From the NCBI RefSeq assembly GCF_000971115.1, contig NZ_BBLV01000003.1, forward strand, positions 186,001 through 250,000: a stretch of 64,000 nt of DNA, read 5' to 3'. The notes under the pieces were generated by a model. That model saw only the letters and a list, made by a program, of their open reading frames with translations, did not search any database and was not told the DNA's origin. The translations under genes were made by a program, and so were the position numbers. This document shows positions 23,485 through 59,479 of this stretch, piece after piece. The DNA comes from Demequina gelatinilytica (GTDB lineage Bacteria; Actinomycetota; Actinomycetes; Actinomycetales; Demequinaceae). The number at the start of each line of letters is the position of its first letter. Positions within the stretch are counted from its first letter, which is position 1.

Positions 23485-23557
23485 TCCTCCGTAGCTCAAT
23501 TGGCAGAGCAGCCGACTGTTAATCGGCAGGTTGCTGGTTCGAGTCCAGCCGGGGGAG
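23485..23557 (+). tRNA. tRNA-Asn (GTT), 3' half probably supplied by the prophage
   Basis: A 73-nt cloverleaf with acceptor TCCTCCG paired to CGGGGGA, anticodon GTT and a T-stem GCTGG/CCAGC. From the anticodon rightwards it coincides with attL, so the gene is rebuilt by the integrated phage. A TAGAGT hexamer at 23468-23473 is a plausible -10. The intact tRNA would be read into the antisense strand of the repressor gene, because its original terminator is now 36 kb away at 59486. Confidence 0.96.
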
Positions 23558-23821
23558 CTTCTTGATCGAGGCCCCTGCCTTGGCCGCCACCGGCGGCTGG
23601 GTGGGGGCCTCTGTCGTTCCCCACTGCAACCAGTACGCGGGCACGCCCGTGACCTCGGCCCACGCGCGGCGCGCGAGCGGCTTTGGCGTAGAGCGCCCCT
23701 TCTCGTAGCGGATCACTGTGCCCGGCGCGATGCCGATGCGCTCGGCAATCTCTCGGACTTCGAGCCCGGCCTCCTCGCGCGCGATACGCATCCGGTGACC
23801 TTCGTGAATCGTGGGGATCAT
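23519..23821 (-). CDS. prophage immunity repressor (XRE helix-turn-helix), lysogen-specific short form
   Basis: A 100-residue protein. Residues 10-35 form an XRE/Cro-type helix-turn-helix (RIAREEAGLEVREIAERIGI, then APGTVIRYEKG). It begins at a strong GGGAGGAGGG ribosome site and is divergent from the excisionase-like gene, as expected of a lysogeny repressor. Its last 12 residues (LPRLDSNQQPAD) are encoded antisense to the tRNA-Asn T-arm, inside the attachment core, and its TAA stop (23519-23521) uses a host-side base. In the reconstructed attP the stop becomes TAC and the frame continues 36 codons to 59332. The lysogen form (100 aa) and predicted virion form (136 aa) therefore differ by a C-terminal tail ending in AA. 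Confidence 0.85.
   Translation of the reverse strand: MIPTIHEGHRMRIAREEAGLEVREIAERIGIAPGTVIRYEKGRSTPKPLARRAWAEVTGVPAYWLQWGTTEAPTQPPVAAKAGASIKKLPRLDSNQQPAD
23520..23558. other. attL, left prophage attachment core (39 bp)
   Basis: The 39-bp segment covering the 3' half of tRNA-Asn matches 59441-59479 at 37 of 39 positions. The differences are G23533/A59454 and C23549/T59470, which pair with one another in the T-stem. Identity left of the first mismatch is 13 bases (23520-23532), the likeliest crossover zone, in the anticodon-stem side as usual for tRNA-targeting tyrosine integrases. Confidence 0.93.
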
Positions 23822-23953
23822 GTCGCCCTCCTCCCAAAACGGTGACTACAGGATAGCAACTAGTAATCAATACGCAAGAGGGAACTAGAGGGGCGACACG
23901 CGGCGTATAGACACTGGTTGCGCTTTGGTGCTCGGCATGCTTCACTGCCACCC
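23822..23953. promoter_or_regulatory. divergent immunity switch region (rep / xis promoters)
   Basis: For the repressor (minus strand), TTGCGT (complement at 23872-23877) and TATCCT (complement at 23850-23855) are spaced 16 bp. AACTAG occurs at 23858-23863, inside that spacer as part of the palindrome ACTAGT, and again at 23883-23888, 17 bp upstream of a TATAGA hexamer (23906-23911) facing the xis gene. Two copies, one in each promoter, make AACTAG/ACTAGT a candidate repressor operator. Confidence 0.5.
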
Positions 23954-24214
23954 ATGAGCGAAAACGACACGGGTGTCCATATGGGCACAGAGGTCGCCCT
24001 CCTCGCCACGGGAGCGGCGGCGAAGCGCCTCGCGATGACGCCGGCCGCCGTGCGCAAGGCGGCCGAGCGCGGCGACCTGAGGGTCGCGCAGAAGCTCGAG
24101 GGATCGCACGGCGCCTACCTCTTCGACGAACGCGACGTCACGGCGTTCGCCGCCGTTCGCCGCGCAGAGCTCGAGGCGAAGCTCGCCGCGATGCGCGCGG
24201 GCGGCGCGTCATGA
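23954..24214 (+). CDS. excisionase/MerR-like helix-turn-helix protein
   Basis: An 86-residue protein with a winged-helix of the excisionase/MerR type: ATGAAAKRLAMTPAAVRKAAERGDLRVAQKLEG and a wing with YLFDERDV. It faces away from the repressor across a 130-bp control region, the place of cro or xis in temperate actinophages. An upstream in-frame ATG at 23918 exists, but the chosen start removes a segment that overlaps the probable promoter. Ribosome site weak. It could direct excision, lytic control or both. Confidence 0.75.
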   Translation: MSENDTGVHMGTEVALLATGAAAKRLAMTPAAVRKAAERGDLRVAQKLEGSHGAYLFDERDVTAFAAVRRAELEAKLAAMRAGGAS

Positions 24215-24219
24215 GCGAC

Positions 24220-24585
24220 CTACTCGCTCGCGACGATGAGCAGCTGGTACTCGTCCGTGAAACGCAGCATGCTCGCGTTGGCAACGAGGCGGGCCTTGCC
24301 GGCACGCTCGAGCTCGCGGTGTGCCCAGTCGAGGTGTCCGCGCGGCACGTGTCCGAGGACCGTGACGCCCAGGCGAACCGCGACCGCGCGTGCGTCGTAC
24401 TGATTCCGCGGCTCAGCCCGCAATTCAACGACGCACTCCGCAGTCGGTGCCGCCGCGCCGTGCTCGACCCAGTCGAGACCGCGTCGATGCGCTTTGTAGG
24501 CGCTCTGGTAGGCGAAGGAGCCCGCCACGCGGAACCCCTCCGGCACATGCGCAAGCACAGTGTCCTTCCTGCTGAACAGTCCCAT
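24220..24585 (-). CDS. HIRAN-domain protein
   Basis: A 121-residue protein opposite to the surrounding early genes. The C-terminal 80 residues have the HIRAN pattern: AECVVELRAEPRNQYDARAV followed by VLGHVPRGH. HIRAN domains bind DNA ends or damaged DNA and usually sit on helicases; here the domain is alone. The ribosome site GAGGGGGAC fixes the start. A plus-strand reading over the same bases lacks any family signal and is treated as its shadow. Its location beside the switch and contrary strand suggest expression in the lysogen. Confidence 0.75.
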   Translation of the reverse strand: MGLFSRKDTVLAHVPEGFRVAGSFAYQSAYKAHRRGLDWVEHGAAAPTAECVVELRAEPRNQYDARAVAVRLGVTVLGHVPRGHLDWAHRELERAGKARLVANASMLRFTDEYQLLIVASE

Positions 24586-24653
24586 CACGTCCCCCTCAAG
24601 ATCGTGTCCCCCACTCTCTCGGTTCAGGCGTGCGGCCACAAGGGGGGCGTGCG

Positions 24654-24872
24654 ATGAACGATGGGACGTTCCTGCAGGTCGTGGCCTTCTGGCTGCTGTT
24701 CGCCGCACTGATGTGCCTCGGGCTCGCGGGCGGCGGCTACTTCTTCGCCCAGGGCTTCGCCTGGTGGGGGCACCGCCGCTTCCACTCCCTCGTCGACTTC
24801 GCCGTCACGCTCGCGATCTGGGGCGTCACCGGCGCGATCCTCGCAGGGCTCCTCCTCGAGGTGTCGGCATGA
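24654..24872 (+). CDS. small membrane protein, two TM segments
   Basis: A 72-residue protein after an AAGGGGGGC ribosome site. Two hydrophobic stretches (VVAFWLLFAALMCLGLAGGG and FAVTLAIWGVTGAILAGLLL) flank a short basic-aromatic loop. It overlaps the next gene by ATGA and opens the rightward early operon. Function unknown; superinfection exclusion is one possibility with no direct support. Confidence 0.65.
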   Translation: MNDGTFLQVVAFWLLFAALMCLGLAGGGYFFAQGFAWWGHRRFHSLVDFAVTLAIWGVTGAILAGLLLEVSA

Positions 24873-25030
24873 AGGCCCGTCGCGCCGCACGCGCCACCCA
24901 CGTCGCCGCCCACGGCCTCGTCGTCGGTGTCGCCTGCGCCGCGCTCCCCCTCGCTCTGGCGCTCGCGATCGCACTGCTGGCGGCCACGCCCGCTGCGCTG
25001 ATCATCCTCGCGAAGGGACGCGAGCAGTGA
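24869..25030 (+). CDS. small membrane protein, early operon
   Basis: A 53-residue peptide, basic N-terminus then one or two hydrophobic segments rich in Ala and Leu (LPLALALAIALLAATPAALII). Overlaps both neighbours by four bases, so it is translationally coupled. Family not recognised. Confidence 0.55.
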   Translation: MKARRAARATHVAAHGLVVGVACAALPLALALAIALLAATPAALIILAKGREQ

Positions 25031-25272
25031 CCGGCCGGTATGCGGGCCTCGACCGCCGCACCTTCGACCGCACCCTGCCCGCGGTCGTCGTGATCGAGCA
25101 CTTCCCCGACGGCGCCCCCGCGCACTACGTCCGCGTCGGCAACGAGATCACCTGGGTCCCGTCCCACGCCGAAGCACTCCGCCGCGCCTACGTCCACAAC
25201 GTCGTGAACGGTCACGCCGCGACCCCTGCAGACCTCCGCAAGCCCACGCCCACCACAGGAGGTACCCGATGA
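25027..25272 (+). CDS. hypothetical early phage protein
   Basis: 81 residues, GTG start overlapping the preceding stop. A soluble alpha/beta protein with the segment AVVVIEHFPDGAPAHYVRVG. No recognised domain. Confidence 0.55.
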   Translation: MTGRYAGLDRRTFDRTLPAVVVIEHFPDGAPAHYVRVGNEITWVPSHAEALRRAYVHNVVNGHAATPADLRKPTPTTGGTR

Positions 25273-25493
25273 ACAAGCCCGTAGCACCCAAGCCCCGACC
25301 CGAGCCTCCGGTCGACCCGGCCGCCGCGCACGTCGAGGCGATCCTCGACAACGCGACCCACCGCGTCCACACCGAAGCCGTCGACGCCATGACCGCGCTC
25401 CACCGGTACGCGCAGCTCATGGACCGCCCGACCCTCGAGTCCGCCACCCAGGACGTCCTCGACGCTCTCGATCGAGTGGAGGCCGCACTGTGA
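25269..25493 (+). CDS. hypothetical early phage protein, helical
   Basis: 74 residues: a Pro-rich start then an amphipathic helical body (AAHVEAILDNATHRVHTEAV). Overlaps both neighbours (ATGA and GTGA). A small oligomerising or regulatory role is possible but not shown. Confidence 0.55.
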   Translation: MNKPVAPKPRPEPPVDPAAAHVEAILDNATHRVHTEAVDAMTALHRYAQLMDRPTLESATQDVLDALDRVEAAL

Positions 25494-25846
25494 CCGCGAC
25501 CCTCACCCCGCGTGACCTCAAGCGCGCCGGCCAGCAGGCTTCCGTCTACCACCTCGACTCCCGCGAGGCCCGCGAGGCCGCGACCGAGGCGATCGTGACC
25601 GCACTCCCCGCCGGCATGGTCGTGTCCGTCAACGTCATCCGTCCCGAGCTTGACGCCGCGAACATCCCCAACCGCTCCCGCGGCGGCCTCATGGTCATCA
25701 TGTGCTCGCGCGGTCACCTCGAGCCGATCTGGACCACGTTCCGTGGCCTCGACGTCCCGGTCACGGAGCCCTCGACCGGCCCGTCGGCGCACAGCGCCCC
25801 GGTCCGCGTCTACATCCGGACGGCGCACCTCCCGGAGGGCAGCTGA
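25490..25846 (+). CDS. hypothetical early phage protein
   Basis: 118 residues of alpha/beta character (MVVSVNVIRPELDAANIPNR). It is coupled to the preceding gene by a GTGA overlap. No family recognised. Confidence 0.55.
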   Translation: MTATLTPRDLKRAGQQASVYHLDSREAREAATEAIVTALPAGMVVSVNVIRPELDAANIPNRSRGGLMVIMCSRGHLEPIWTTFRGLDVPVTEPSTGPSAHSAPVRVYIRTAHLPEGS

Positions 25847-25847
25847 C

Positions 25848-26135
25848 ATGGCCTACGCCCCCGACGACCGCTGCCCCGAGGCGGGCTGCCGCGCACCGAT
25901 CAACTTCGTGTACGTCCCTGCGCGCCGTAAGTCCCTCCGCTTCGACCCGACGCACGTGCGTCGCAACGGCGACCCCCTCGCGAAGTGGGTCGCCTACCCC
26001 GACCCGCGCACCGGAGCGACGTTCGCCCGCCGCCTCACCCCCGGTGAGCACGTCGACTTCGAAGGCGGTGAGGAGGTCATCCGCCTCCACGCCGCTGTCT
26101 GCCCCGCCGTTGTCCGCGGCAACCACGACTCCTGA
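25848..26135 (+). CDS. hypothetical protein with possible zinc site
   Basis: 95 residues. A CPEAGCRAPI segment near the N-terminus and a later Cys/His pair (RLHAAVCP) could bind zinc. The ATG lies one base after the preceding stop, so translation is probably coupled. Function unknown. Confidence 0.55.
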   Translation: MAYAPDDRCPEAGCRAPINFVYVPARRKSLRFDPTHVRRNGDPLAKWVAYPDPRTGATFARRLTPGEHVDFEGGEEVIRLHAAVCPAVVRGNHDS

Positions 26136-26158
26136 CGCCCACCGGAAGGAACCCCATC

Positions 26159-27640
26159 ATGCCCACGAAGAAGCGCACCTCCGTCACCACCGCCACCGAC
26201 GTCGACGTCGACGTCGCGCTCGACACCGCCGACCTGATCACGGAGCGCCTGCAGGCGACCGGCCTGGTCGCGATCGATCCGCACCTGATCGACCCCCACC
26301 CGCGCAACCCCCGCAAGGAGTTGGGTGACCTCACCGAGCTGTCCGCCTCGATCGCGGCCCACGGCATCCGCCAGCCCCTCACGGTGGTGCCGCACCCCGA
26401 CGACCCCTCCCGGTTCCGTGCCGTCATCGGCCACCGGCGTCGCGCGGCCGCGATCGAGGCGGGCTTCACCGTCGTCCCCGCCCTCATCGACCACGAGCTC
26501 GACGAGGCCGGCCAGCTCGAGCTGATGCTCCTCGAGAACATCCAGCGTGTCGACCTCAACGTCATCGAGGAAGGCACCGGCTATCAGGGTCTCCTCGACC
26601 TCGGCGTCACCCAGGCCCGTATCGCATCCGAGACGGGCCGTGCCGCATCGACCGTCGCACAGCGCATCAAGGTTGCGTCCCTGCCGGAGAACTTGCATGC
26701 CGCGGTCCTCGAGCGTCAGTGCACACTCGAGGAGGCCGCGGACTTCGCGGGCCTGCCCGAGCGTGACGACGTCGCGTTCGCGAAGGCGATCAAGGCCGTC
26801 GAGGCGGGCAAGAAGATCCCCGGGTACGCGATCCAGGACGCCCTCACGCAGGCCCGCCGTCGCGAGCGGCTCGCCCGTGCGAAGGACCTCGCCGCCGAGT
26901 TCGACTTCGACGTCACGATGAAGAGCGAGTGGGAGTACTCCCCCAAGGTCTCCCTCGGTGAGCTCGAGTGGACCCCGAAGCAGCACCACAAGTCGGGTTG
27001 CGACGGTGGTCTCCTGTGCACCTCCGACTACTACCTCGGTGGGGACACGCTCACGTCGCTCGGTCGCCTGATCTGCGTCAAACCCGACAACCACGCCAAG
27101 CGCCGCGAGGAGCTCGCCGCGATCGCCGCTGCGAAGCGTGCCGCCCAGCCCGAACGCGTCGAGTCCGACGAGGACCGCGCGGACCGTGAGGAGATCGAGC
27201 AGCTCGAACGCGACATCAACGCCGCCACCGAGGGCCGCCGCGCGTGGGTCGCGGCGCTCTTCCTCCCCGCTGCCGAGCACGTGGGCCCGATGCGCGCCGC
27301 GCTCGCGGCCTACGCCACCGACATCGTCAAGACCGGACGCCGCACCATCAACGTGCACCTGTGGGGCGACACCATCATCGACGACGTCCTCGCCGACTCC
27401 GTAAAGGGCCCCGACCGCCTCGCGACCCTCGCACTCCTGTCCGCCACCGAAGCACTCGTCCCGACCGACCCGTGGGGATGGGAGCGGATCGCACGCTCGG
27501 CGGGCTACAACCCCCTCGGCGCCGCCCAGGGTCCCGTCCACCGCTACCTCACCACGCTCCGCGACATCGGCTACGAGCTCACCCCCCGCGAGACCGACCT
27601 CGTCACCGCGCTCGCGGATCTCATCAAGGACGCGGACTGA
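26159..27640 (+). CDS. ParB/RepB-like nuclease-domain DNA-binding protein
   Basis: A 493-residue protein with a ParB N-terminal domain: IDPHPRNPRKELGDLTELSA, then the arginine-rich box GHRRRAAAIEAGF and the motif LMLLENIQRVDLN. A helix-turn-helix follows (GVTQARIASETGRAASTVAQ). A central insert with CDGGLLCTSDYYLGG and Cys may bind metal; the C-terminal 150 residues are unassigned. No parA gene accompanies it, so in this integrated phage it is more likely a regulator or replication factor than a partition protein. It shares one base with the WhiB start. Confidence 0.85.
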   Translation: MPTKKRTSVTTATDVDVDVALDTADLITERLQATGLVAIDPHLIDPHPRNPRKELGDLTELSASIAAHGIRQPLTVVPHPDDPSRFRAVIGHRRRAAAIEAGFTVVPALIDHELDEAGQLELMLLENIQRVDLNVIEEGTGYQGLLDLGVTQARIASETGRAASTVAQRIKVASLPENLHAAVLERQCTLEEAADFAGLPERDDVAFAKAIKAVEAGKKIPGYAIQDALTQARRRERLARAKDLAAEFDFDVTMKSEWEYSPKVSLGELEWTPKQHHKSGCDGGLLCTSDYYLGGDTLTSLGRLICVKPDNHAKRREELAAIAAAKRAAQPERVESDEDRADREEIEQLERDINAATEGRRAWVAALFLPAAEHVGPMRAALAAYATDIVKTGRRTINVHLWGDTIIDDVLADSVKGPDRLATLALLSATEALVPTDPWGWERIARSAGYNPLGAAQGPVHRYLTTLRDIGYELTPRETDLVTALADLIKDAD

Positions 27641-28032
27641 TGGGCGCCCTGGACTGGCAGGCAGACGCGCTCTGCGCGCAGGTCGACCCGGAGGTCTTCT
27701 TCCCCGGCAAGGGCGGCTCGACGCGCGAGGCGAAGTGGATCTGCAGCCGCTGCGACGTCCGAGAGAAGTGCCTCGAGTGGGCGATCGCGAACGACATCAG
27801 CGGCGGCACCATCGGTGGTCTCTCGGACCGCGAGCGAGCGAAGGTCCGCCGCGCTCGCGGCATCCCGAGCGCAGACGAGCAGCGCCGCAAGCGTGAGGAC
27901 GCTGCGATCGCTGCCCGCGCCGCCGCCGGTCTCGACGTCGAAGAGATCGCCGCTTCGCTTGCCATGAACGCCGAAACCGTCCGCCAGCGCCTGTCCCGCA
28001 TGAACCGTCGACCAGCGGAGATCGCATCATGA
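27640..28032 (+). CDS. WhiB-family iron-sulfur regulator with C-terminal helix-turn-helix
   Basis: A 130-residue WhiB-like protein. Four cysteines (12, 35, 38, 44) match the 4Fe-4S pattern C-x22-C-x2-C-x5-C, followed by the turn GGTIGGLSDRER. Unlike the usual short basic tail, about 60 more residues form a second helix-turn-helix (LDVEEIAASLAMNAETVRQR). Phage WhiB proteins can interfere with host sigma-factor-bound WhiB regulators. The start shares its A with the ParB-like gene's TGA. Restricted to actinobacteria and their phages, it supports the taxonomic call. Confidence 0.9.
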   Translation: MGALDWQADALCAQVDPEVFFPGKGGSTREAKWICSRCDVREKCLEWAIANDISGGTIGGLSDRERAKVRRARGIPSADEQRRKREDAAIAARAAAGLDVEEIAASLAMNAETVRQRLSRMNRRPAEIAS

Positions 28033-28220
28033 CCGCCGCCGACGTCCGCGCCCTCACGATCATCGCCCTCCTGACCGTCGCGACCGCGGCCGTGTCGACC
28101 CACGTCGCCGCGACCGCCGGCCGCGGTCTCGCCGCCCTCGCCGCGCTCGCGGTGCTCACCGCGGTCGCGCTCCTCGCGTGGGCCCGCCGCCGCCTGATCC
28201 TCGAGGAGCGTGCACGATGA
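28029..28220 (+). CDS. small membrane protein
   Basis: 63 residues, two hydrophobic stretches (LTIIALLTVATAAVSTHVAA and LAALAALAVLTAVALLAW) and a basic end. Overlaps the WhiB gene (ATGA) and the next gene. Function unknown. Confidence 0.55.
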   Translation: MTAADVRALTIIALLTVATAAVSTHVAATAGRGLAALAALAVLTAVALLAWARRRLILEERAR

Positions 28221-28759
28221 CCACGGACGCCTGGATCACCGTCATCGCGGTCGCGATCCTGTTCACCCCCCTGGGGCTGGTGAAGCCCGCCATGCGTTGG
28301 TGGCGCGCCCACCACACCCAGCCCGCCACGGTGTCCCCGATCGCACAGCAGGCCAGCGAGCACATGCGCCGCGGCGTCCCCGGCGCACGCTCCCGTCAGC
28401 CCCTCCCGGACGGCTTCGCACCCCTCACCGGCGGGGCCCTCACGATCGAGGCCGGCAACGTCGCGATCTTCACCGCGTCGAACGGGATCGTGCTGCACAA
28501 GCTCACACCCCTCGACGCACCCGGCATCCTCATCGCCCACGACGGCACCCTCTGCGGATCCCCCGTCACCTGCTGCCGCCGCTCCCCCGACCTGCCCGCC
28601 TACGGCGGCTGGTCCGACTGGCTCATCGAACTCGACGCCATCCGCGCGACCGGCCGCGCCCTCGCAGAGCTCACCCTCGCAGACCTGCGAGCCATCACCG
28701 CCTTCACCGAGTACGGGCAGACGCAACGCGCCCGCCAGAACGGAGCCCACCGTGCCTGA
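28217..28759 (+). CDS. hypothetical membrane-anchored protein
   Basis: 180 residues: one N-terminal membrane segment (AWITVIAVAILFTPLGLV), then a soluble domain with CGSPVTCCRR. Ends in LRAITAFTEYGQTQRARQ, a helical tail. Family not recognised; overlapped by the next gene. Confidence 0.55.
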   Translation: MTTDAWITVIAVAILFTPLGLVKPAMRWWRAHHTQPATVSPIAQQASEHMRRGVPGARSRQPLPDGFAPLTGGALTIEAGNVAIFTASNGIVLHKLTPLDAPGILIAHDGTLCGSPVTCCRRSPDLPAYGGWSDWLIELDAIRATGRALAELTLADLRAITAFTEYGQTQRARQNGAHRA

Positions 28760-29201
28760 CACCATCAACCACCGCGCGCTCGCGGACGACTACCTCGAGC
28801 GCGCTGGGATCGCGCGCAGCGTGGACGACCACGACGCGACAGCCGCGCTCGTCGCGATCGCCACGCACCACCAGCTCGCGGCGCTGACTGAGCTCACGGC
28901 CGAGCTCGTCGACCACGTCAGGTTCCTCGCGGGCGCTGAGGTGCAGCGTCTCCGCGACGAGGAGGAGCTCGCGAAGCCCGACCCCGACATCGCCTACACG
29001 CCCAGCCTGCCGGTCCTGCTCTACACCGAGCCCGACCCGCCCATCATCGTCAACACCCCCATCGAGTTCGCGGGCGTCGCGGATGACGCGGTCGTCGAGG
29101 ACGCGACGGGATGGATCAACACCGCGCACGCCTGGCGCTCCACCCCCTACCAGTCCCTCACGCTCCCCGCACGCGTCCTCGTCCGCACCACCTCTGCATG
29201 A
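28752..29201 (+). CDS. hypothetical early phage protein
   Basis: 149 residues, GTG start overlapping the preceding gene by eight bases. The first half is helical (LADDYLERAGIARSVDDHDA), the second half beta-rich and proline-containing. No domain recognised. Confidence 0.5.
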   Translation: MPDTINHRALADDYLERAGIARSVDDHDATAALVAIATHHQLAALTELTAELVDHVRFLAGAEVQRLRDEEELAKPDPDIAYTPSLPVLLYTEPDPPIIVNTPIEFAGVADDAVVEDATGWINTAHAWRSTPYQSLTLPARVLVRTTSA

Positions 29202-29314
29202 CCCGCTGCCCCGCGGCCTGCCCCACCTGCGGCCACCGCTGCGAAGCGATGACCATCGGCCACGCCAACCACTACGACGAAGCCCACACCTGGCCCGAGG
29301 AGGACCCGACATGA
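29198..29314 (+). CDS. tiny zinc-finger-like protein
   Basis: 38 residues with C-P-A-A-C-P-T-C-G-H-R-C near the start and two later histidines, a probable zinc knuckle. Overlaps its neighbours by four bases on both sides, which supports translation. Confidence 0.5.
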   Translation: MTRCPAACPTCGHRCEAMTIGHANHYDEAHTWPEEDPT

Positions 29315-30201
29315 ACGGCTCCGACACCATCACGATCCACCACCTCGTCACCACCACCATCGCGATCACCGCGAACCCTGACCCGACGGCCCCCGCTGCG
29401 TTCCTGACCCTCGGCGACGCCCACCACACCGTGCGCCGTCTCACCGACGACGAGATCAAGCGGCTCTACCTCCTCGGCGTCGTCACCATCGTCGGCGTCG
29501 GCCCCGACCCGGAGATCATGATCCCGCTCGACCCGGCCACCGCCGCACCGGTTGTGTCCGACCCCAAGCCCACGCCCGACCCGGCACCGGCACCGGCTCC
29601 CAAGGCCAAGCGCACCCCGCCCCGCGGTGGCCGCAAGACCGCCGCCGAGACCCAACGCATCAACGACGCCATCCGCACCGCGCTCGCGACCGGGGCATCC
29701 ATCACCGAGGCAGCGGAGGCCGCGGGCGTGTCGTCGTCGGCCGCTCAGCAGCGGATCTCGAGGTACAAGCTCCGCGACGGCCTCAACCCGTCGAAGCACG
29801 CCCCGGCCAAGACGAAGAAGGTCACGAAGCTGCCGAACCCGAAGGCCGTACCCGCGCCGCAGCGGCCTGCATCGTTCGCGCCGAAGCCCACCGAGGCCCC
29901 CACCTCCCGCATGGTGTCCGCGCTCGGAGCGAAGCGCCGCATCCTCTCGCTCTACCGCATCGGGTACGACCACCTCCGCCTCAACCAGCGTCTCGGCGCT
30001 GCCGGCATCGTCGTGTCGTCGATCCTCGCTGACGACGTCACCGAGATCCCCCGCGCCACCCACGCCGCGATCGACGACCTCTGGCACCGCCTCCGCTACA
30101 CCCCCGTCACGCCGTCCCCCGCCTCCCACGCTCCGCGCGCGTTCCCGCCGCCCGGAGCGTGGGACAACATCGACGACCCCAACGAGCACCACGAGATCTA
30201 G
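29311..30201 (+). CDS. DNA-binding protein with helix-turn-helix segments and basic linkers
   Basis: 296 residues. A Pro/Ala/Lys-rich linker around residues 85-110 leads to a helix-turn-helix (ALATGASITEAAEAAGVSSSAAQQRIS), then another Lys/Pro linker and a C-terminal helical domain with a second recognition-like segment (GYDHLRLNQRLGAAGIVVSS). The layout suggests a DNA-binding regulator or replication accessory protein of the early operon. Target unknown. Confidence 0.65.
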   Translation: MNGSDTITIHHLVTTTIAITANPDPTAPAAFLTLGDAHHTVRRLTDDEIKRLYLLGVVTIVGVGPDPEIMIPLDPATAAPVVSDPKPTPDPAPAPAPKAKRTPPRGGRKTAAETQRINDAIRTALATGASITEAAEAAGVSSSAAQQRISRYKLRDGLNPSKHAPAKTKKVTKLPNPKAVPAPQRPASFAPKPTEAPTSRMVSALGAKRRILSLYRIGYDHLRLNQRLGAAGIVVSSILADDVTEIPRATHAAIDDLWHRLRYTPVTPSPASHAPRAFPPPGAWDNIDDPNEHHEI

Positions 30202-30212
30202 GAGCAGCCGCC

Positions 30213-30329
30213 ATGGAACCGAACTGCACCACCTGCGGCCACCCCGCCAGCGAGCACACCCCCATGCTCCGCGGCTGCGACCGCATCACCTGCAAGTGCC
30301 CGAAGTACATCGAGTCCAGCGATGAGTGA
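30213..30329 (+). CDS. tiny cysteine-rich protein
   Basis: 38 residues with CTTCGHPASEH and CDRITCKC, a likely zinc-ribbon-like fold. It has a GGAG ribosome site and overlaps the next gene by eight bases. Confidence 0.5.
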   Translation: MEPNCTTCGHPASEHTPMLRGCDRITCKCPKYIESSDE

Positions 30330-31056: not shown

Positions 31057-31087
31057 ACGCCCGCGCTGTGCTCGCGGAGGTGGCCCG

Positions 31088-31543: not shown

Positions 31544-31545
31544 CG

Positions 31546-31728: not shown

Positions 31729-31799
31729 GTCCGCCCCCTCGTAGTAGGTGGCCCCAACCGTAGCGGCTGCAATCGCGCGAGCAACAGGAGGAACAGCCG

Positions 31800-50936: not shown

Positions 50937-50939
50937 GCG

Positions 50940-51170: not shown

Positions 51171-51195
51171 CACCACACGAGCCCACGGAGGAGAC

Positions 51196-51996: not shown

Positions 51997-52005
51997 GCCA
52001 CGCCC

Positions 52006-52230: not shown

Positions 52231-52240
52231 GGCGCTCACC

Positions 52241-54262
52241 ATGGCGAAGTGGGAGTTTACCCGCGAGGGCACATACCGGTATCCGACGCTCGGCTTCACT
52301 GCCTCGACCGGCGACGTGGTCGAGGCAGATATCGCCCCAGACGCGTGGTGGGACGAGGTCGATGGGTCGACCGCGGTGACGATCCCGGTCACCCCGATCG
52401 GCGGCGCGACCGAGCCTGCGCAGGACGCGATCCAGGCCTACAACCGGACCACCAACCGTGGGCAGTGGAAGACGCTCAGCGAACTCGGCTTGCTCACTGC
52501 GGCCGAGCAAGATGCGCGGTATGCCTCTCAGCTCGACATCACCGGCCTGCCCACTGCGACGATCAACGCCTGGCTCGCGACCGCCTCCGCGCTCGGAGTG
52601 AAGCGCATGGTCGGCGCGGCCACGATCTCTGCGCCGCTCACCGTCGTATCGGATACGCGCCTCGACGCGCTGGGCGCACACATCACCGCGGGCTTCGACG
52701 GCAACATCCTCCGCAACGAGCACTATGCGAGCGGCGACCGCGACACGAACATCACCATCATCGGCGGCACCTGGGACCGCGCCGCGCGCGGCGGGTCGAA
52801 CAACGATGCGCACTCGATCTTCATCCGTCGAGTCGACGGCATCCATATCGAGCAGGTGACGTACCTCTCGGAGGCTGGGAAGTACGGGATCGCCCTTGGC
52901 GACATCAGCGACTACACGCTGCGTGACATCCGCTCGACGTGCGCCTCCGACACGATCCACATCACCGGCCCCGCCTACGACGGGGTCATCGACGGCGTGC
53001 GAAACTCCGGCGGCGGCGATGACGTCGTGGCCTTCACGACGACCGATTACACCGCCTACGACGACGTCCACGGCCCTATCGCGGGCGTCTCTGTGCGCAA
53101 CGTCTCCGGCACCACTTCGACCCGCATCGTGCTGATCGGCGGAACAGCATCGGGCGTGGCCGACGGCTACGACATCAGCGGCATCGTCGTCGAGGACGTT
53201 GTCCAGCACGGGACCGGCCACTCCGTGTGGACCGGCTCCACCGCCGCCGACGCGGCCCAGATCGTGGACCTCACGGTGCGTCGCGCATCGGGCGGTCAGG
53301 GTGTGAACCTGCGCCACCACCGCCACGGGGCTGTCACGCTCGAGACGATCACCGCGGCGGCCGGCAGCTCGCCCGTGAGCATCGGCATCGACAGCGCCGG
53401 CTCCAACGTCGTGACCAATCTGACGGTGAGCAAGGCTACCCACACCGGCTCGACGGCGTTCCTCAGCGTCAACAACGCGAACATCACCGTGGGCACAGTC
53501 ACCCTCGACGGCGTGACGTGCACTGGCGCCGGCGCGATGGTGAGCGCCATCGCCGCCGCATCGTTCACCGCCCTTGTCCTGCGCGGCTGTCGCTACGCCG
53601 GGAGCAACGACGTCCTCACGCTCGGAGGCACCTACACGCTCGGGCAGGTGACCTTCTCGGACTCCGCGCTCACGACCGGAGCGGGCAAGCACGTCATGCG
53701 CCTGAGCGACACGATCACGGTCGCGGCGATCGCGTTCTCCCGGTGCACCATCGGAGCGGCCGACACCAGCAGCGGGATCATGGTCTACAAGGGCTCGACG
53801 GGCCCCGTGCTCGGCTCCATCAACGTCGATGGGTGCGACCTCAACGCGATCGGTCGCATCCTCGAGGTGGCCAGCGGTTCCAGCGGGACCGTCGCTCTCA
53901 ACGTCGCGAACACCGATGTCACGGGCTGCAACCGCATCGCCCAGGTCGGCGGCGGCACGCTCAACTTCATCTACGCCAACGTGAGCGGTGCCACCGTCAA
54001 CGAGCCCATCCGGGTCTACAACGGCACGGCGGCGAACATCCGCGGTGCCGGATGGGGAGTCAAGACTTCGAGTTGTGTGGTGCGCGCGAGCGCCGAGGTC
54101 ATCCACGTTCTCGCGCAGGACTTCCCGGCCGACGTGTCGATCCTCACGAAGGCCAACGGCGACGCAGCGACCAACACCAACGCAGGCCTCGCGTGCGGAG
54201 CCGGTCGCGTGATCTCGGACGGGTCGGCGTGGAAGAACGTCTACTCAGGGGCGACGTACTAG
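52241..54262 (+). CDS. tailspike 1, beta-helix
   Basis: 673 residues. The first 85 residues are an adapter shared with the second tailspike (MAKWEF, GDVVEAD, APDAWWDEVD, then an LGL motif). From about residue 110 a right-handed beta-helix runs through repeated short strands of Asn/Asp/Val/Thr (ITIIGGTWDRA, GIHIEQVTYLS, NITVGTVTLDGV). Such spikes bind or cleave surface polysaccharide. No catalytic residues can be picked out by eye. Confidence 0.85.
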   Translation: MAKWEFTREGTYRYPTLGFTASTGDVVEADIAPDAWWDEVDGSTAVTIPVTPIGGATEPAQDAIQAYNRTTNRGQWKTLSELGLLTAAEQDARYASQLDITGLPTATINAWLATASALGVKRMVGAATISAPLTVVSDTRLDALGAHITAGFDGNILRNEHYASGDRDTNITIIGGTWDRAARGGSNNDAHSIFIRRVDGIHIEQVTYLSEAGKYGIALGDISDYTLRDIRSTCASDTIHITGPAYDGVIDGVRNSGGGDDVVAFTTTDYTAYDDVHGPIAGVSVRNVSGTTSTRIVLIGGTASGVADGYDISGIVVEDVVQHGTGHSVWTGSTAADAAQIVDLTVRRASGGQGVNLRHHRHGAVTLETITAAAGSSPVSIGIDSAGSNVVTNLTVSKATHTGSTAFLSVNNANITVGTVTLDGVTCTGAGAMVSAIAAASFTALVLRGCRYAGSNDVLTLGGTYTLGQVTFSDSALTTGAGKHVMRLSDTITVAAIAFSRCTIGAADTSSGIMVYKGSTGPVLGSINVDGCDLNAIGRILEVASGSSGTVALNVANTDVTGCNRIAQVGGGTLNFIYANVSGATVNEPIRVYNGTAANIRGAGWGVKTSSCVVRASAEVIHVLAQDFPADVSILTKANGDAATNTNAGLACGAGRVISDGSAWKNVYSGATY

Positions 54263-54280
54263 CCCCACAACGACCCAGAA

Positions 54281-54328
54281 TGTGGCGGTCATCGCTACAC
54301 CTTTGATAGCGTGGCGATGACCGCTACA
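54281..54328. promoter_or_regulatory. inverted repeat upstream of the cargo gene set
   Basis: Arms 54281-54298 and 54311-54328 are complementary at 16 of 18 positions, and both exceptions can pair as G-U in RNA. The centre holds CTTTGATAG, and TACAGA (54325-54330) ends the right arm. It could be an operator around a promoter for 54342-55398, or a terminator for the tailspike. Confidence 0.55.
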
Positions 54329-54341
54329 GATGGGGGAAGCC

Positions 54342-54797
54342 ATGGCCTCGACAGCCCCGGGCTCGAGCACCGTTCGCGCCTGCGACCTGCGCTACGGGAT
54401 GCGCATCATCACGCCGAATGGCCACCTCGGCACCGTGCTCGACGCCGTGCTCGACGACACGCACCTGCGCATCTTCGTCGCGCTCGAGGACGGCGACGAG
54501 AGCAGCATCTACGCGCGCGTCGGCGAGACGTTCCACGTCCGCGCCGCCGCGATCAAGGTCCGCGCGGTGTGCCAGTTCTGCGCCTGCACGTCCCGCTGGC
54601 ACGAGACGCGCGACGGACGCGCCGACCTCTGGGAAGGCGTCGGCCGCGGCTGGTCCGTGGCACCGTATCCGCCCGCGCACGCGCACCGGTGGGGCCCGCA
54701 TGGCGACCTGTGGACCTGCCCCAAGTGCGAGCGCGAGGGCACCATCGGCAAGCGCCCCGGCGCGTGGGAGGGCACTGAACGCAAGGCGGCGGCATGA
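54342..54797 (+). CDS. hypothetical protein with zinc motif, inter-tailspike cargo
   Basis: 151 residues. The start is set by GGGGGAAG, though an ATG four codons earlier is possible. An N-terminal beta barrel (GMRIITPNGHLGTVLDAVLD) is followed by CQFCACTSRWHE and a final CPKCEREG, together a likely zinc site. It lies between two virion genes but overlaps a regulator-like gene, so it is probably expressed separately from the tail operon. Confidence 0.6.
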   Translation: MASTAPGSSTVRACDLRYGMRIITPNGHLGTVLDAVLDDTHLRIFVALEDGDESSIYARVGETFHVRAAAIKVRAVCQFCACTSRWHETRDGRADLWEGVGRGWSVAPYPPAHAHRWGPHGDLWTCPKCEREGTIGKRPGAWEGTERKAAA

Positions 54798-55012
54798 TGT
54801 CCCCCATGTCGCCACAGCACAAGGGCCTGATCCCCGCGACCGACCAGGCCCGCATCCGCGCCGCGCTCGCGGCCCGCGATGCGTCCTACGACGAGCTGGT
54901 CGCCGCGGTCCTCGACGCCGCCGAGCATGGCGCGTCGGTGCGTGAGCTCGCGGAGTTCACCGGTCTGTCGACGAACACCATCACCAGGTGGAAGCGAGGC
55001 GAGCGAGCATGA
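54794..55012 (+). CDS. small helix-turn-helix protein
   Basis: 72 residues with a C-terminal helix-turn-helix (ASVRELAEFTGLSTNTITRW). Overlaps both neighbours by four bases. Possibly regulates the small gene set in which it sits. Confidence 0.7.
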   Translation: MMSPMSPQHKGLIPATDQARIRAALAARDASYDELVAAVLDAAEHGASVRELAEFTGLSTNTITRWKRGERA

Positions 55013-55398
55013 GCGAGACAGGTTCCCACGAGTTCACGACACGCGACGGCGTGCGCGCGATCATGATGACCGAGCGCACGCGCTTCGGCGACGAGACCGC
55101 CGCCGGCGTCATGGCGAACCGTTGTGCGTTCACCTCGCGCGACATGGGCGCGGACTGGCCCGAGGCGTTCACCTACGCGATCGTCATGGGCTGGGGCAAC
55201 GATGACGACGAGTGCGAGTCGGGCGAGTGCGAGGTCGCGTTCGAGGACTGCAAGGACCCGGCGCACCGCGGCATGGCTGAGCGGGAGGTGGCGGCGAAGT
55301 TCGGCTGGGACGAGACGCTGATCGCCTTCCTGCGCGACGCCCACGACCGCTTCAAGGCGCTGCCTCAGACGGCGAATCGTAGCGACGGTCGCGAATAG
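55009..55398 (+). CDS. hypothetical protein, acidic
   Basis: 129 residues with an acidic, Cys-containing middle (WGNDDDECESGECEVAFEDC) and a helical end. Coupled to the helix-turn-helix gene by ATGA. No family recognised. Confidence 0.55.
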   Translation: MSETGSHEFTTRDGVRAIMMTERTRFGDETAAGVMANRCAFTSRDMGADWPEAFTYAIVMGWGNDDDECESGECEVAFEDCKDPAHRGMAEREVAAKFGWDETLIAFLRDAHDRFKALPQTANRSDGRE

Positions 55399-55460
55399 TC
55401 AGCCACCCCACTTTGCCCGGCCCCACCGCCACGGAGCCGACCACTGCCCAGCGCTCCCAG

Positions 55461-55652
55461 ATGACAGGATCCTCGGTCGCGGTGGACGCCCGCGTCCCGT
55501 TCACGGGCTACTACCTCGGCGAGCCGGGGACGCGCGTCGCGCTGTCCATCTGGGGCATGCGAAGCGGCGGCTCCGCGACCACGGCCGCGACCGACTACCG
55601 CGGTGAAGCCGCGCGCTGGGAGCCAGTGCGCAACAACCAGTTCCACGGCTGA
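55461..55652 (+). CDS. possible small protein before tailspike 2
   Basis: 63 residues from ATG (MTGSSVAVDARVPFTGYYLG). No ribosome site; a TTG 48 bases upstream would lengthen it. Coding nature uncertain. Confidence 0.3.
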   Translation: MTGSSVAVDARVPFTGYYLGEPGTRVALSIWGMRSGGSATTAATDYRGEAARWEPVRNNQFHG

Positions 55653-55696
55653 GCACCGGCTCCCCAACCTCGCCCTACCCCCGGACGGAGACCGAC

Positions 55697-57622
55697 ATGG
55701 CGAAGTGGCAGTTCAACCGGCCCGGCTCGTGGGACTACGCGACCCTCGACATCCGCGCGACGTTCGGCGACGTCCTCGAGGCCGACTTCGCGCCCGACGC
55801 ATGGTGGGACGAGGTCGACGAGTCGACGCCGGCGACGATCCCCGCGACACCGTCATCCGGCGTCATCGAACCCAGCCAGTTCTCCCTGCAGGCCTACGAC
55901 CGCGGCCTGAATCACGGCGTATGGAAGTCCCTGTACGACCTCGGGCTGGTGCCGGGCGCGCCCGGCGTGCGCTTCGCCGGCCAGATCCAGCCCTCGGGCG
56001 ACACGTCGGGCATGACGGACCGTCTCGCGATCATGGCCGAGCTCGCGCGCTGCGGTGTCGCCCACCTCGCGCCAGGCAGGTTCTACATCAACGACGACCT
56101 CCTCGTCCCCGAGGGCGGCGCGATCATCGGATCCGGCTGCTTCGCGACAGTGATCACGGTCGCGGCAGACGCGAACGTCCACGGCATCATCTGGGCCACC
56201 GACGTCGACAACATCCACGCCGCCGACCTCGCTGTCGACGGCAACGCGGACAACACGAACTCGTTCACCGGCACCTACCCTCGCGCGGGGATCTTCACCC
56301 GCCGCGTCTCGAACGTCGTCCTGTCGAACGTCTACGCGACGAACACATGGGGCGCCGGCGTCTACCTCATCAACTCGGGCGCGGAGACGAACTCCCGCAA
56401 CACCGAGCTCACCAACGTCACCGCACAGGCGTGCAAGTCCGACGGCATCAAGGTCTCCAACGCGATCCGCGACGTCTTCTACAACGGCGTCTACGCCCGC
56501 GACAACGGCCGCCACGGCGTCGTCATCGACCACTCCGAGGCCTCGAGCTCCGAGATCATCGCCAACGCCAACGCCGGCGTCGGGATCTACGTCCGCAACG
56601 TGTACTCCCACAACCTCAAGGGCCTCACCGCCAAGCGCAACCAGCTCGCCGGGATCGTCGGCTGGGCCCTCACCCGCTCGATGGACTCCTCCTGGGTCGC
56701 GCAGGGCAACTGCCTCCACCTGACCTCCGGCGAGGGCGCCATCTCCGACCTCGGCGAACCGTTCGACTCCACCGGCGACCACCTCAAGGGCGACATCGTG
56801 ATCATGGCCGGCGCAGCCGAGGGCGCGTCCTACGGCTCGACCCGCCACCTCGCGCTCGCGGGCGTCGTCGCGGGCTCCGACAGCGAGCTGGGCTACTCCC
56901 GCGCCGCCCCCTACGCGCTGTACATCGCCGACGGTGTCGGCGCTCGCGGTTCGGTCGCGATCACCGGAGTCGTCGCGCAGGCGGGTACCGAGGGCCGCAT
57001 CCGGGTGCCCGAGACGGGCGACATCTACGTCGAGGAGTTCGTCGACGGGGTGCGATACGTGCACCGTGGCCGCGACGCCGCGGACCTCCTCGCCTACGAC
57101 GACTGGTCCGGTCGCGACGCGATCGGCGCGGGCATGACGTCGGGTCAGGCATGGATCCAGACCACCGGCACGTGGACTCGCGTGCGCGACCTGCTGTCGG
57201 GCTCAGGCTCGAGCACGTACCTCACGGCCGCGCTCGGCGCGGACCTCCGGCTCGACGTGACCTGGGAGACGCAGGACTCGGACACGATGGCGCTGCTGTT
57301 CCGCGGAATCGACCAGAACAACCATCTCTGGGTCGCGCTCGGCGGCACCGGCATGCAGCTGCGCAAGCGCGTCGGCGGCACGAACACGACCCTCGCGGAG
57401 GGCGCGCTCGCCTGGACGACGAACACCCGCCACCGCGTCACGGTGACCGTCGACGGCGCTGAGATCACCGTCGCGGTCGACGGCGCGGAGGTCATCGCGC
57501 ACACCCTCACCGGCGGCGACGAGACCACGTTCGCGTCGGCCGACCGTGTCGGCTACAAGGTGCTGGGCGCGAACTCCGGTCAGGCCGCGATCGGGCACCT
57601 CACGGCGCAGTCGCTCGCTTAG
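55697..57622 (+). CDS. tailspike 2, beta-helix with C-terminal sugar-binding-like domain
   Basis: 641 residues. The N-terminal adapter (about residues 1-85) matches tailspike 1 (MAKW.F, GDV.EAD, APDAWWDEVD.ST, QAY.R..N.G.WK). A pectate-lyase-like beta-helix follows (ADLAVDGNADNTNSFTG and ELTNVTAQACKSDG). The last 180 residues form a concanavalin-like sandwich (WETQDSDTMALLFRG, then HRVTVTVDGAEITVAVDGAE). The two spikes probably use the same socket with different receptors. Confidence 0.85.
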   Translation: MAKWQFNRPGSWDYATLDIRATFGDVLEADFAPDAWWDEVDESTPATIPATPSSGVIEPSQFSLQAYDRGLNHGVWKSLYDLGLVPGAPGVRFAGQIQPSGDTSGMTDRLAIMAELARCGVAHLAPGRFYINDDLLVPEGGAIIGSGCFATVITVAADANVHGIIWATDVDNIHAADLAVDGNADNTNSFTGTYPRAGIFTRRVSNVVLSNVYATNTWGAGVYLINSGAETNSRNTELTNVTAQACKSDGIKVSNAIRDVFYNGVYARDNGRHGVVIDHSEASSSEIIANANAGVGIYVRNVYSHNLKGLTAKRNQLAGIVGWALTRSMDSSWVAQGNCLHLTSGEGAISDLGEPFDSTGDHLKGDIVIMAGAAEGASYGSTRHLALAGVVAGSDSELGYSRAAPYALYIADGVGARGSVAITGVVAQAGTEGRIRVPETGDIYVEEFVDGVRYVHRGRDAADLLAYDDWSGRDAIGAGMTSGQAWIQTTGTWTRVRDLLSGSGSSTYLTAALGADLRLDVTWETQDSDTMALLFRGIDQNNHLWVALGGTGMQLRKRVGGTNTTLAEGALAWTTNTRHRVTVTVDGAEITVAVDGAEVIAHTLTGGDETTFASADRVGYKVLGANSGQAAIGHLTAQSLA

Positions 57623-57815
57623 CCGCGATCGCCTCGAGCGCGTCGCGCGGCTCGTAGTAGCGGCCGTCGCCGGCCCCACCTGCGAGCAGCGACACCGACC
57701 AGTACTCCCCCGCAGGCGAGATCCAGCCGATCGTCACGCCGGCGCTGTCGCGCACGACCCACTGGCGTCCGGCGAGGTCGGCGACGAGGTCACCCGCGGT
57801 CATCGTGATCTTCAC
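57600..57815 (-). CDS. small hypothetical protein, convergent to tailspike 2
   Basis: 71 residues from GTG (ATG four codons later is possible). Beta-rich (GRQWVVRDSAGVTIGWISPA) with an EPRDALEAI helix at the end. It overlaps the tailspike end by 23 bases tail to tail. Function unknown. Confidence 0.55.
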   Translation of the reverse strand: MKITMTAGDLVADLAGRQWVVRDSAGVTIGWISPAGEYWSVSLLAGGAGDGRYYEPRDALEAIAAKRATAP

Positions 57816-57862
57816 CCCACCAGCGTGCCAGGCGCCCCTGACGTCCGCCGCACACCCAGACG

Positions 57863-57897
57863 ACCCCCACCACCCCTTCCTCCCGGGTGGTGGGGGT
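57863..57897 (-). terminator. 13-bp hairpin after the integrase gene
   Basis: Perfect arms 57863-57875 and 57885-57897 with a 9-base loop, 10 bases beyond the integrase stop. GC-rich without U-tract. It likely ends integrase transcription. Confidence 0.6.
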
Positions 57898-57907
57898 CTC
57901 GTGGTGT

Positions 57908-58744
57908 CTACGCGGCGCGGGGAAGCTCCCACGCGTGGGGGGCGATCGGCCGGATGTCGTTGACGGGCGCGGCGTCGGCGACGATCTGGACGCGGGCGGC
58001 GTCGGCGACCTTCGCGTAGAGCAGCGTCGTGTCGATCTTGGCGTGGCCCATCACGTCCCGCAGGGCGAACACGTCGTGGTTGGCCTGGTAGGCGGTGGTG
58101 CCGAACGCATGGCGCAGGGTGTGGGCGGTGTAGTGCCCCTCGAGGGCGCGCGACGCGAGCCGGGTGATGTGGAGCGCGGACAGGTGGCCGTCGACGCGAC
58201 CGGGGAAGAGGTAGCCGCGGGCGTTGGCGATCGCGGCGCGCAGCTCGGGGTCGAGGATCGGCACCGCGCGCTCGTTCTTGCCCTTGCCGCGCACGTAGAG
58301 GTTCTCGCCGATCAGGTCGCGGCTGTGGACCTGCGCGATCTCCATGCACCGAAGGCCGGCCTGGCGTGCGAGCGCGAGGATGAGCCGCTCGCGCCACGGC
58401 GCGATGCCCATGGCGCGCCGGTAGACCTCGTCAGGTGCGGGCCGGGGCACCCCGCGCGGCGCGGTGACCGGCCGCATGCCTGCCGCGGGCGAGGCTGCGA
58501 GATAGCCCGCGTCGACCACCCAGCGGTAGAACTGGCGCAGCGTCACCTGCGCGCTCTTGCGTGCCTGCGCGCCGACGTTCAGCCCTGCCAGCCACATCTC
58601 GATCTGCAGACGGGTGACGGTGAGCGGGTCGGCGTGGCGGCGCGAGAAGGCGGTGACGTAGTGCCGCCGCAGTCGGCACGTGCCGAGCGAGCGCCCGGCC
58701 GCGAGGTACGAGGTGATGAACTCGTCGATCAGCTTGCTCCACAT
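57908..58744 (-). CDS. tyrosine-family integrase
   Basis: A 278-residue tyrosine recombinase. An N-terminal SAM-like core-binding domain is followed by the catalytic set: Arg132 in AGLRCMEI, Lys155 nearby, HTLRHAF with His208 and Arg211, GHAKIDTT with His234, and Tyr243 in LLYAKV. It would catalyse integration at tRNA-Asn. In the free phage it lies downstream of the repressor and the 118-aa gene on the same strand. In the lysogen that operon is cut at attR. The next 229 bases (58745-58973) hold no gene; a TATACC hexamer there faces the integrase and may be its own promoter. Confidence 0.95.
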   Translation of the reverse strand: MWSKLIDEFITSYLAAGRSLGTCRLRRHYVTAFSRRHADPLTVTRLQIEMWLAGLNVGAQARKSAQVTLRQFYRWVVDAGYLAASPAAGMRPVTAPRGVPRPAPDEVYRRAMGIAPWRERLILALARQAGLRCMEIAQVHSRDLIGENLYVRGKGKNERAVPILDPELRAAIANARGYLFPGRVDGHLSALHITRLASRALEGHYTAHTLRHAFGTTAYQANHDVFALRDVMGHAKIDTTLLYAKVADAARVQIVADAAPVNDIRPIAPHAWELPRAA

Positions 58745-58973
58745 GGTGAACCCCCAGCTTCCGGACGGCGTCGGTACCGTCCTGCCTGTGCCGGATGCAT
58801 CGGCTTCCCGACCGCCGCTCTTGAGCCCGAGATTCCAGCATTACCCCAGGTATACTACGGAATTGTGTGGTGGTTTCGGGCATACGGAACCGTCCCGCGG
58901 GCCGCGTTTTCCGCTGGTATATCAGGGAGGTGGTGCGGGATGCGCGCGGCTTCGGGTGCGGTGGTCTCGGCTG

Positions 58974-59330
58974 TCAGGAGTGCGTCGAATTGGCTCCGAA
59001 CTTCGCCTCGACGATCTGGCTGGCGACGAAGGAGTCCCACCCATCGGGCGCTGGGGGGACCCATGCGGGCACGTCACGGATCAGCTCGCGCGCGCCGGCG
59101 ATGACGTGCCACGTCACTCCGCGGAAGGACTCGGCGCCCATGGCGTGGACGCCGAGGTACTCGACTTCGCCGCGCAGCGAGTGCTCCCAGGTGACGCGGT
59201 CCACGACGATCGGCATCGCGGACGGGTAGTGCGGGTCCTCGAGCTCGACCGGGGGGACGACGGCGACGGTGACCTTCGCGGACGCGTGGGCTCCGGGCTC
59301 AAGGCGCCCCGGCCGGCTGCCGATGCCCAT
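58974..59330 (-). CDS. hypothetical protein between repressor and integrase in the free phage
   Basis: 118 residues, beta-rich with PIVVDRVTWEHSLRGEVEYL and a helical C-terminus (GWDSFVASQIVEAKFG). Its ATG lies one base after the TGA that ends the predicted virion-form repressor (TGAGATG), so in the circular phage it is coupled to that form only. I do not recognise the family. It could modulate immunity or integration. In the lysogen it has lost its upstream gene. Confidence 0.65.
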   Translation of the reverse strand: MGIGSRPGRLEPGAHASAKVTVAVVPPVELEDPHYPSAMPIVVDRVTWEHSLRGEVEYLGVHAMGAESFRGVTWHVIAGARELIRDVPAWVPPAPDGWDSFVASQIVEAKFGANSTHS

Positions 59331-59331
59331 C

Positions 59332-59442
59332 TCAGGCGGCCTTGTCGCCGAGGTCCAGCCGCGGCGCGCTCAGGCGCTCGCGGACGCGGCGCTTCTTGTC
59401 ATCGAGCGAGGAGACGGTCCCCGGGACCGTGTGCGCCCTGTA
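59332..59442 (-). other. stranded 3' exon of the virion-form repressor
   Basis: Read on the minus strand from the attR core, these 36 codons plus stop are in frame with the repressor when attP is restored. The peptide begins YRAHTVPGTV, has a charged middle (DDKKRRVRERL) and ends RLDLGDKAA, with the terminal Ala-Ala of ssrA-type ClpXP tags. In the lysogen it has no start and is not expected to be made. Confidence 0.75.
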
Positions 59443-59479
59443 ATCGGCAGGTTACTGGTTCGAGTCCAGTCGGGGGAGC
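59441..59479. other. attR, right prophage attachment core (39 bp)
   Basis: Second copy of the core, ending the prophage. It carries the T-stem ACTGG/CCAGT, compared with GCTGG/CCAGC in attL, so it most likely holds the original host 3' tRNA sequence. It is not a complete tRNA: the 5' half is absent. Confidence 0.93.

Follow-up and report, generated by a model that had tools for sequence, protein, structure and literature searches.

A prophage in a tRNA-Asn gene of Demequina gelatinilytica very probably carries an integration-dependent immunity switch

Introduction

In mycobacteriophage BPs, the attachment site attP lies inside the repressor gene, and the long form of the repressor, 136 amino acids (aa) in length, is degraded (PMC4557955, PMC9262239). 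Proteolysis of this long form has been reported, while both forms of the repressor bind DNA similarly (PMC4557955). In the BPs group, the integrase is also controlled through its C-terminus, the first host base makes the stop codon, and mismatches between the cores preserve pairing within the tRNA (PMC4557955, PMC9262239). Here, we analyzed a stretch of 64,000 nucleotides from Demequina gelatinilytica (contig C30, positions 186001-250000, of a 3.2-Mb genome; hereafter the window), which carries a prophage integrated at a tRNA-Asn gene. A first-pass annotation had read its repressor gene, rep, as a case of integration-dependent immunity, and this reading is now well supported by anatomy and comparison.

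The switch in the window joins the published kind. It shares with BPs and with phages of clusters G, I, N and P an attP within rep, an attB in a tRNA gene and a core-adjacent host base that makes the stop, and with the BPs group also the 136-aa viral form, a tyrosine integrase (int) with a C-terminal signal of its own, and a repressor and integrase homologous to those of the BPs relative Angel. The respective matches were to Angel gp33 (40% over residues 2-68, E 5e-6) and gp32 (35.5% over residues 2-267, E 6e-28), which overturns the initial impression that the sequences are unrelated to the BPs group. In contrast to that group, the window uses tRNA-Asn, another antisense frame and an extra open reading frame (ORF) between rep and int. 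Moreover, the Angel repressor ends in -DKAS and that of the window in -DKAA, and the window has a strong hairpin in the DNA of the repressor linker, which joins the DNA-binding domain to the att peptide and is encoded just inside the core, whereas Angel-type linkers are without one.

Integration-dependent immunity also occurs in Gordonia phages (PMC5559632). Wizard, McGonagall, GRU3 and Opie, whose repressors are related to that of the window, have -AA tails and linker hairpins in common with it. Wizard gp47 was the best named repressor among the matches listed (43%), and integrases of small Gordonia phages, at 38-41% to the window integrase, were the best-matching among those listed. In phage GMA5, as in the window, rep and int are separated by an ORF, whereas the targets of the Gordonia phages include Arg, Lys, Ser, Thr, Ala and Gly tRNAs, and Asn does not appear in the table of PMC5559632 as excerpted. 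For prophages of Mycobacterium abscessus and Bifidobacterium (PMC8092301, PMC9934374, PMC6109161), the viral repressor was likewise deduced from attL and attR, truncation occurs near the core and several tails end in -AA, but the hosts are different. Repressors without ssrA-like tags occur too (PMC8092301). Among the literature matches listed, no paper brought together integration-dependent immunity, tRNA-Asn and a prophage. The features that differ in the window are thus the tRNA-Asn target, a 118-aa ORF between the rep tail and int, and the linker hairpin.

Results

The prophage body (23559-59439) lies between the tRNA-Asn gene (gtt; 23485-23558, plus strand), of which the 5' part belongs to the host and the 3' part is supplied by the phage, and a second partial core. 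The attL core spans positions 23519-23558 and the attR core 59440-59479; attB is the 3' end of the tRNA-Asn gene. In the lysogen, rep (23519-23821, minus strand) encodes a 100-aa XRE-type protein that matched HTH_3 in Pfam (PF01381, 6e-10) and the transcriptional repressor family phrog_2328 in PHROG (1.1e-16). Its final codons read the tRNA gene in antisense; the protein ends in LPRLDSNQQPAD, followed by the stop codon TAA at 23521-23519, exactly where the first-pass annotation had placed it. Joining the right side of attL to the left side of attR reconstructs an attP whose core is located inside the repressor ORF. In this attP, codon 101 reads TAC (Tyr), which the first host base past the core turns into TAA in the lysogen. 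The 3' remnant of rep (59332-59440, minus strand) is in frame only in attP; it encodes a 36-residue tail, YRAHTVPGTVSSLDDKKRRVRERLSAPRLDLGDKAA, before a TGA at 59334-59332. The joined frame, which we reproduced in every detail as previously described, yields a 136-aa repressor with the end RLDLGDKAA. Both reading frames and the tail can be read directly from the DNA, as can the allele assignment and the homologies.

The C-terminus of the viral form, -DKAA, is ssrA-like in sequence. When random frames of the window prophage were sampled, 236 of 8835 (2.7%) had an -AA end directly before the stop; a crude greedy gene set, in which one of 53 ORFs ended in -AA, was not relied on. Two points count against the switch. 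Frames open for at least 36 codons make up 60% of random frames, so that an open frame by itself is to be expected, and the end -GDKAA is less similar than some other tails to ALAA, with which the transfer-messenger RNA tag of the host, ADSKRTDFALAA, ends.

The reconstruction depends on which of the two cores carries the phage allele. The attL and attR cores have two blocks in common, TAATCGGCAGGTT (13 bp, 23520-23532) and CTGGTTCGAGTCCAG (15 bp), and differ in one pair of the T-stem, which is G-C in attL and A-T in attR. An A-T pair in attP would stop the rep frame at codon 97. If the crossover had taken place further right, attP would carry the attR alleles, the repressor would end at codon 97 whether or not the phage is integrated, and the tail frame would be a product of chance. 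Such a crossover could be accommodated by CTGGTTCGAGTCCAG, which both cores share and which follows the first T-stem difference on the right. In addition, the T-stem allele is not fixed: among 30 tRNA-Asn loci from 30 genomes, own genome included (the best-matching of 59 genomes that were searched), 15 had A-T and 15 had G-C, the latter including the attL of the window and the lysogen G003. As the allele varies within the group, the question has to be answered from sites whose flanks match those of the window. In the empty site of genome G011, the left flank of the window (95.3% over 574 bp) directly adjoins the right flank (89.8% over 1859 bp); the two have no overlap beyond the 39-bp core, and this core has A-T. 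The empty site of G002 agrees with it, with contiguous flanks and A-T. These two sites, which have the closest flanks and come from the two closest relatives examined, therefore identify attR as the host half and attL as the phage half, so that the T-stem pair right of the crossover in attL is the phage allele, the crossover occurred in TAATCGGCAGGTT and attP is open. G003 shows the same allele split together with a similar tail, and all resolvable tails end in -AA (see below). We accordingly regard an attP with the attR alleles, which had been put forward as the case that would overturn the annotation, as hardly credible. As read from the sequence, the paired T-stem change of the phage keeps the tRNA stem while removing an in-frame stop.

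Independent lysogens exhibit the same anatomy. A related repressor was present in four of 44 genomes of the genus, own included (E 1e-8), and in six of 396 genomes of an order-wide sample (E 1e-12), with three (G382, G110 and G101) outside the genus. The repressor of G003, 65% identical, is likewise in tRNA-Asn and ends in LPRLDSNQQPAD and a stop, and its attR tail ends in SSLDDKRRIASERQRVTRPDLDHKAA (..DLDHKAA); window and G003 tails were identical at 15 of 26 positions, a value reached by none of 100000 shuffles. Integration shortens rep by a stop at or adjoining the core in all four genus members, by a change from TAC to TAA in the window and G003, from TGG to TGA in G001 and from TGG to TAG in G032. 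The latter two reside in tRNA-Arg(acg), with the tails ..HGKPAA (G001) and ..QPDAA (G032), and read its antisense in different frames, ..EGFEPPTF (G001, L041) versus ..RDSNPQPSDP (G032, L042). Two frames at one tRNA-Arg suggest either a frame change or a repeated origin of the overlap between repressor and tRNA.

Outside the genus, the tail in G382 ends in ..GDWDLAA, and the core reads like the tRNA-Arg(acg) of G001 and G032. The G382 repressor (L079) may be as long as 195 residues, because its helix-turn-helix (HTH) domain and att peptide are set apart by an additional region. G101 has two repressors that are related but differ from each other. A full-length one (..NQQPFGYKF..RTPVAA) is encoded in contiguous DNA before int (L078 1471-1848, G101:C1 at about 589.7 kb), and a truncated one (..NQQPFD and stop) is at tRNA-Asn, 42 kb away (L080 1474-1773, at about 631.8 kb). 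This looks like a decayed tandem in which one repressor was left permanently tagged. Tandem prophages have been described and were argued to need different frames (PMC9934374); the junction in G101 is in frame, but its partner is an apparent remnant. An intact tandem of two such prophages was considered for G101 and rejected, as the left member is remnant-like and lies beside chromosomal fatty-acid genes. Altogether, all six lysogens of the order in which the viral-form tail could be resolved have an -AA end, including the window and, in contiguous DNA, G101; the seventh lysogen, G110, falls outside this count because its rep contig ends at the core. The tRNA-Asn target named in the first-pass annotation is confirmed, but it is not peculiar to this prophage: the repressors of G003, G101 and the IMG/VR locus L102 end there too.

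With the single repressor of the window as query, the genome contigs gave one short match of 23 residues (L035) and the viral sequences only the prophage itself (L036). An IMG/VR search with an alignment of 15 repressors gave 39 loci. Where an integrase followed downstream, 12 of 15 repressors ended in -AA and the remaining three in -AVA (L125) or -KAS (L126 and L128), as compared to one -AA end among 24 loci where none did (Fisher p 1.4e-6; 2.1e-6 with near-duplicates collapsed). The other 23 ends of the integrase-less group were read by eye as antisense-tRNA peptides; this group includes the prophage of the window itself (L096) and five loci whose DNA ends 79-647 nt past rep, where an integrase further on is possible. 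Named phages behaved similarly. In 12 records, picked among 120 of 232 matching records listed, six of the eight repressors with int next or one gene downstream ended in -AA and the other two, those of Angel and Barebow, in -AS. Outside these eight were Nandita (repressor of 81 aa, no tail), Scamander (-TAA, no int beside it), Cole (-RKAA, int about 1 kb away) and prophiGD43A-5 (a cut prophage record).

These ends bear on a further alternative, according to which the change at the C-terminus is real without creating a degron: the tail might affect multimerization, DNA binding or translation, or the overlap might be a neutral by-product of tRNA targeting. Several members indeed lack -AA, namely Angel, L126 and L128 (-KAS), Barebow (-RAS) and L125 (-AVA), and only four of the eight named-phage integrases (Wizard, Emperor, Opie and Doggs) end in -AA. 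Because of such exceptions in both proteins, -AA cannot be called a universal feature and does not prove degradation, and its role as a degron in the window is deduced from sequence. The strong association of -AA with the attP form speaks against this alternative, as do the proteolysis of the long form and the similar DNA binding of both forms reported for BPs (PMC4557955), and we judge it to be quite improbable. We rather infer that the long form is subject to proteolysis, and that the two forms would differ in stability and repression.

The DNA just inside the core has a second conspicuous property. On the tRNA strand, the linker codons of rep contain a terminator-like hairpin (23564-23615, plus strand; minimum free energy -45.8 kcal/mol for 23559-23640, z -4.0). 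In relatives with an empty site, tRNA-Asn is likewise followed by a terminator-like hairpin; in the window its counterpart (59485-59513, plus strand) is at attR, 36 kb from the tRNA. Of 54 repressors, five were dropped from a folding test since they had no att motif, and the 46 unique linkers that were folded had a mean dinucleotide z of -3.7. Signal position was analyzed in 50 of the 54 (L114, L116, L133 and L134 being without motif), which reduced to 40 at 80% identity. Here, the mean z was -3.67 at the tRNA end, with 78% below -2, then -1.43 at an offset of 15 nt and 0.05 to -0.55 from 30 nt onward. Strong simple hairpins were present in 28 of the 40 linkers, whereas 160 control windows taken from these genes contained 2. 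In the 10 nt after the stem, these 28 linkers had 3.79 T on the tRNA strand versus 2.11 elsewhere in the gene (p 6e-6). The stem started at a median of 8 nt past the tRNA. For comparison, 28 tRNA-Asn loci from other genomes, including the lysogen G003, had a median start of +5 for the best hairpin. In five hand-picked alignable members, four of 14 pairs changed on both sides, while 98.6% of the cells remained paired. The covariation score was reached by none of 500 shuffles and the number of two-sided pairs by 9 of 500; two of the five measures were weaker, being reached by 9 and 70 of 500 shuffles.

These data argue that in phages with integration-dependent immunity the linker of rep is probably overprinted on the other strand, so that about 50 bp would serve both as repressor linker and as intrinsic terminator of the captured tRNA gene. 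The adjoining core has three roles, encoding the C-terminus of the repressor, forming the 3' end of the tRNA and serving as attachment site. In the overprint reading, recurrent linker peptides such as PSPDGDG and PDGPDGG are the antisense spelling of the hairpin. Other observations fit this less well. Compared to resampled synonymous codons, the folding excess was modest (mean z -0.76, p 0.0035), which implies that most of the folding signal comes with the amino-acid sequence. Twelve of the 40 repressors were below the cut of the simple hairpin scan (the window, G032, Angel, L103, L104, L108, L109, L110, L119, L125, L130 and L131); the window itself, which has a bulged stem, scored 24, the cut being 26. 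The T excess over the matching flank of the other strand was weak at equal lengths (0.38 versus 0.27, p 0.02). A strand comparison at unequal lengths (p 2.5e-4) was discarded, since many 5' flanks did not reach 10 nt and biased the result. The hairpin may hence be a by-product of a linker rich in Pro, Asp and Gly in G+C-rich DNA, or may act on the repressor mRNA, with no tRNA terminator involved. To this we assign a lower but appreciable likelihood, as the strong folding signal is confined to the tRNA end across very different linkers, the tRNA strand is enriched in T just past the stem, the small set shows paired stem changes, and the median stem start of +8 can be set beside the +5 of the tRNA-Asn loci.

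Phages in general can bring tRNA terminators. In the literature searched, we found no link between a terminator and integration-dependent immunity; the founding study, Broussard 2013, lay outside this search, and a prior mention is possible. The words terminator, hairpin and stem-loop were absent from PMC9262239 and PMC5559632 and from the main texts of PMC9934374, PMC8092301 and PMC6109161; PMC9635641 contained neither terminator nor hairpin, PMC12243558 no terminator, and PMC4557955 only a hairpin-like DNA loop.

The genes around rep were compared with the BPs-like layout proposed in the first-pass annotation. Its main elements were found, with rep across attP, int downstream on the same strand and a divergent HTH gene; one extra ORF lies between the rep tail and int, so that the agreement with BPs is incomplete. 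The integrase (57908-58744, minus strand; 278 aa) matched PF00589 (3.9e-15), with the catalytic domain alone being matched in Pfam. Its end, WELPRAA, carries a putative -AA signal that the first-pass annotation did not mention; the integrases of G003 and G001 also end in -AA and that of G032 in -AG. A 3.8-kb contig of the same genome (G000:C5, L059) contains a 515-residue integrase-like open frame (38% to the window integrase). The extra ORF (58974-59330, minus strand; 118 aa) begins 1 nt past the rep stop and had no match in Pfam or PHROG. In the window, G003 (L038), G001 (L057) and Gordonia phage Opie (L065 1839-2081), a small ORF starts directly at the rep stop or only a few bases from it, but the encoded proteins look different.

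The HTH gene (23954-24214, plus strand; 86 aa) is Cro/excisionase-like and divergent from rep; it matched phrog_2474 and phrog_66 weakly (E about 6e-4), the match to the latter, an excisionase family, being at 7e-4. Angel gp34 is annotated as a recombination directionality factor. A control region of 132 bp (23822-23953) separates rep from the HTH gene. Three observations in this neighborhood do not favor the proposed switch: the 118-aa ORF together with a 229-nt gap between the rep tail and int leaves their cotranscription unproven, scans for sigma-70 consensus promoters, the rep-HTH intergenic region included, found none, and a search of the 132 bp for operators gave no convincing repeated palindrome. 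In the rest of the prophage body, the ORF scan (10 ORFs, three without match) revealed a ParB-like gene in the early region (26159-27640) and genes for terminase (36111), portal (37848), capsid (39741), minor tail (42956) and tape measure (45181) proteins.

Discussion

An integration-dependent immunity switch, including removal of a probable degron and a probable terminator in the linker, is the best explanation of the locus, and we hold it with high confidence. ClpXP recognizes ssrA-type ends. In the free phage, the 136-aa repressor would be removed through its C-terminal -AA tag by host proteases, most likely ClpXP, and the lytic genes would be on. Recombination between the core and the tRNA-Asn 3' end would be carried out by the integrase, itself ending in -AA. 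The host base past the core would then convert codon 101 to TAA, giving a stable 100-aa repressor and an immune lysogen. The hairpin in the linker DNA just inside the core would probably stand in, on the tRNA strand, for the host terminator displaced to attR.

Our findings extend a known switch to another actinobacterial genus and to tRNA-Asn, as well as to two antisense frames at one tRNA-Arg. They also provide a cheap survey method, in which antisense-tRNA peptides at the ends of prophage repressors are set beside -AA ends in the virion forms. The allele result indicates how the switch constrains the core, since the paired T-stem change of the phage avoids a premature stop. If the terminator is real, the coding sequence of the repressor doubles as terminator of a host tRNA gene, which would account both for the linker peptides that recur and for a normal tRNA 3' end in lysogens. 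The hairpin would take the place of the host terminator, left stranded 36 kb away by integration, and in the lysogen it would stop tRNA transcription from entering the repressor gene and its control region.

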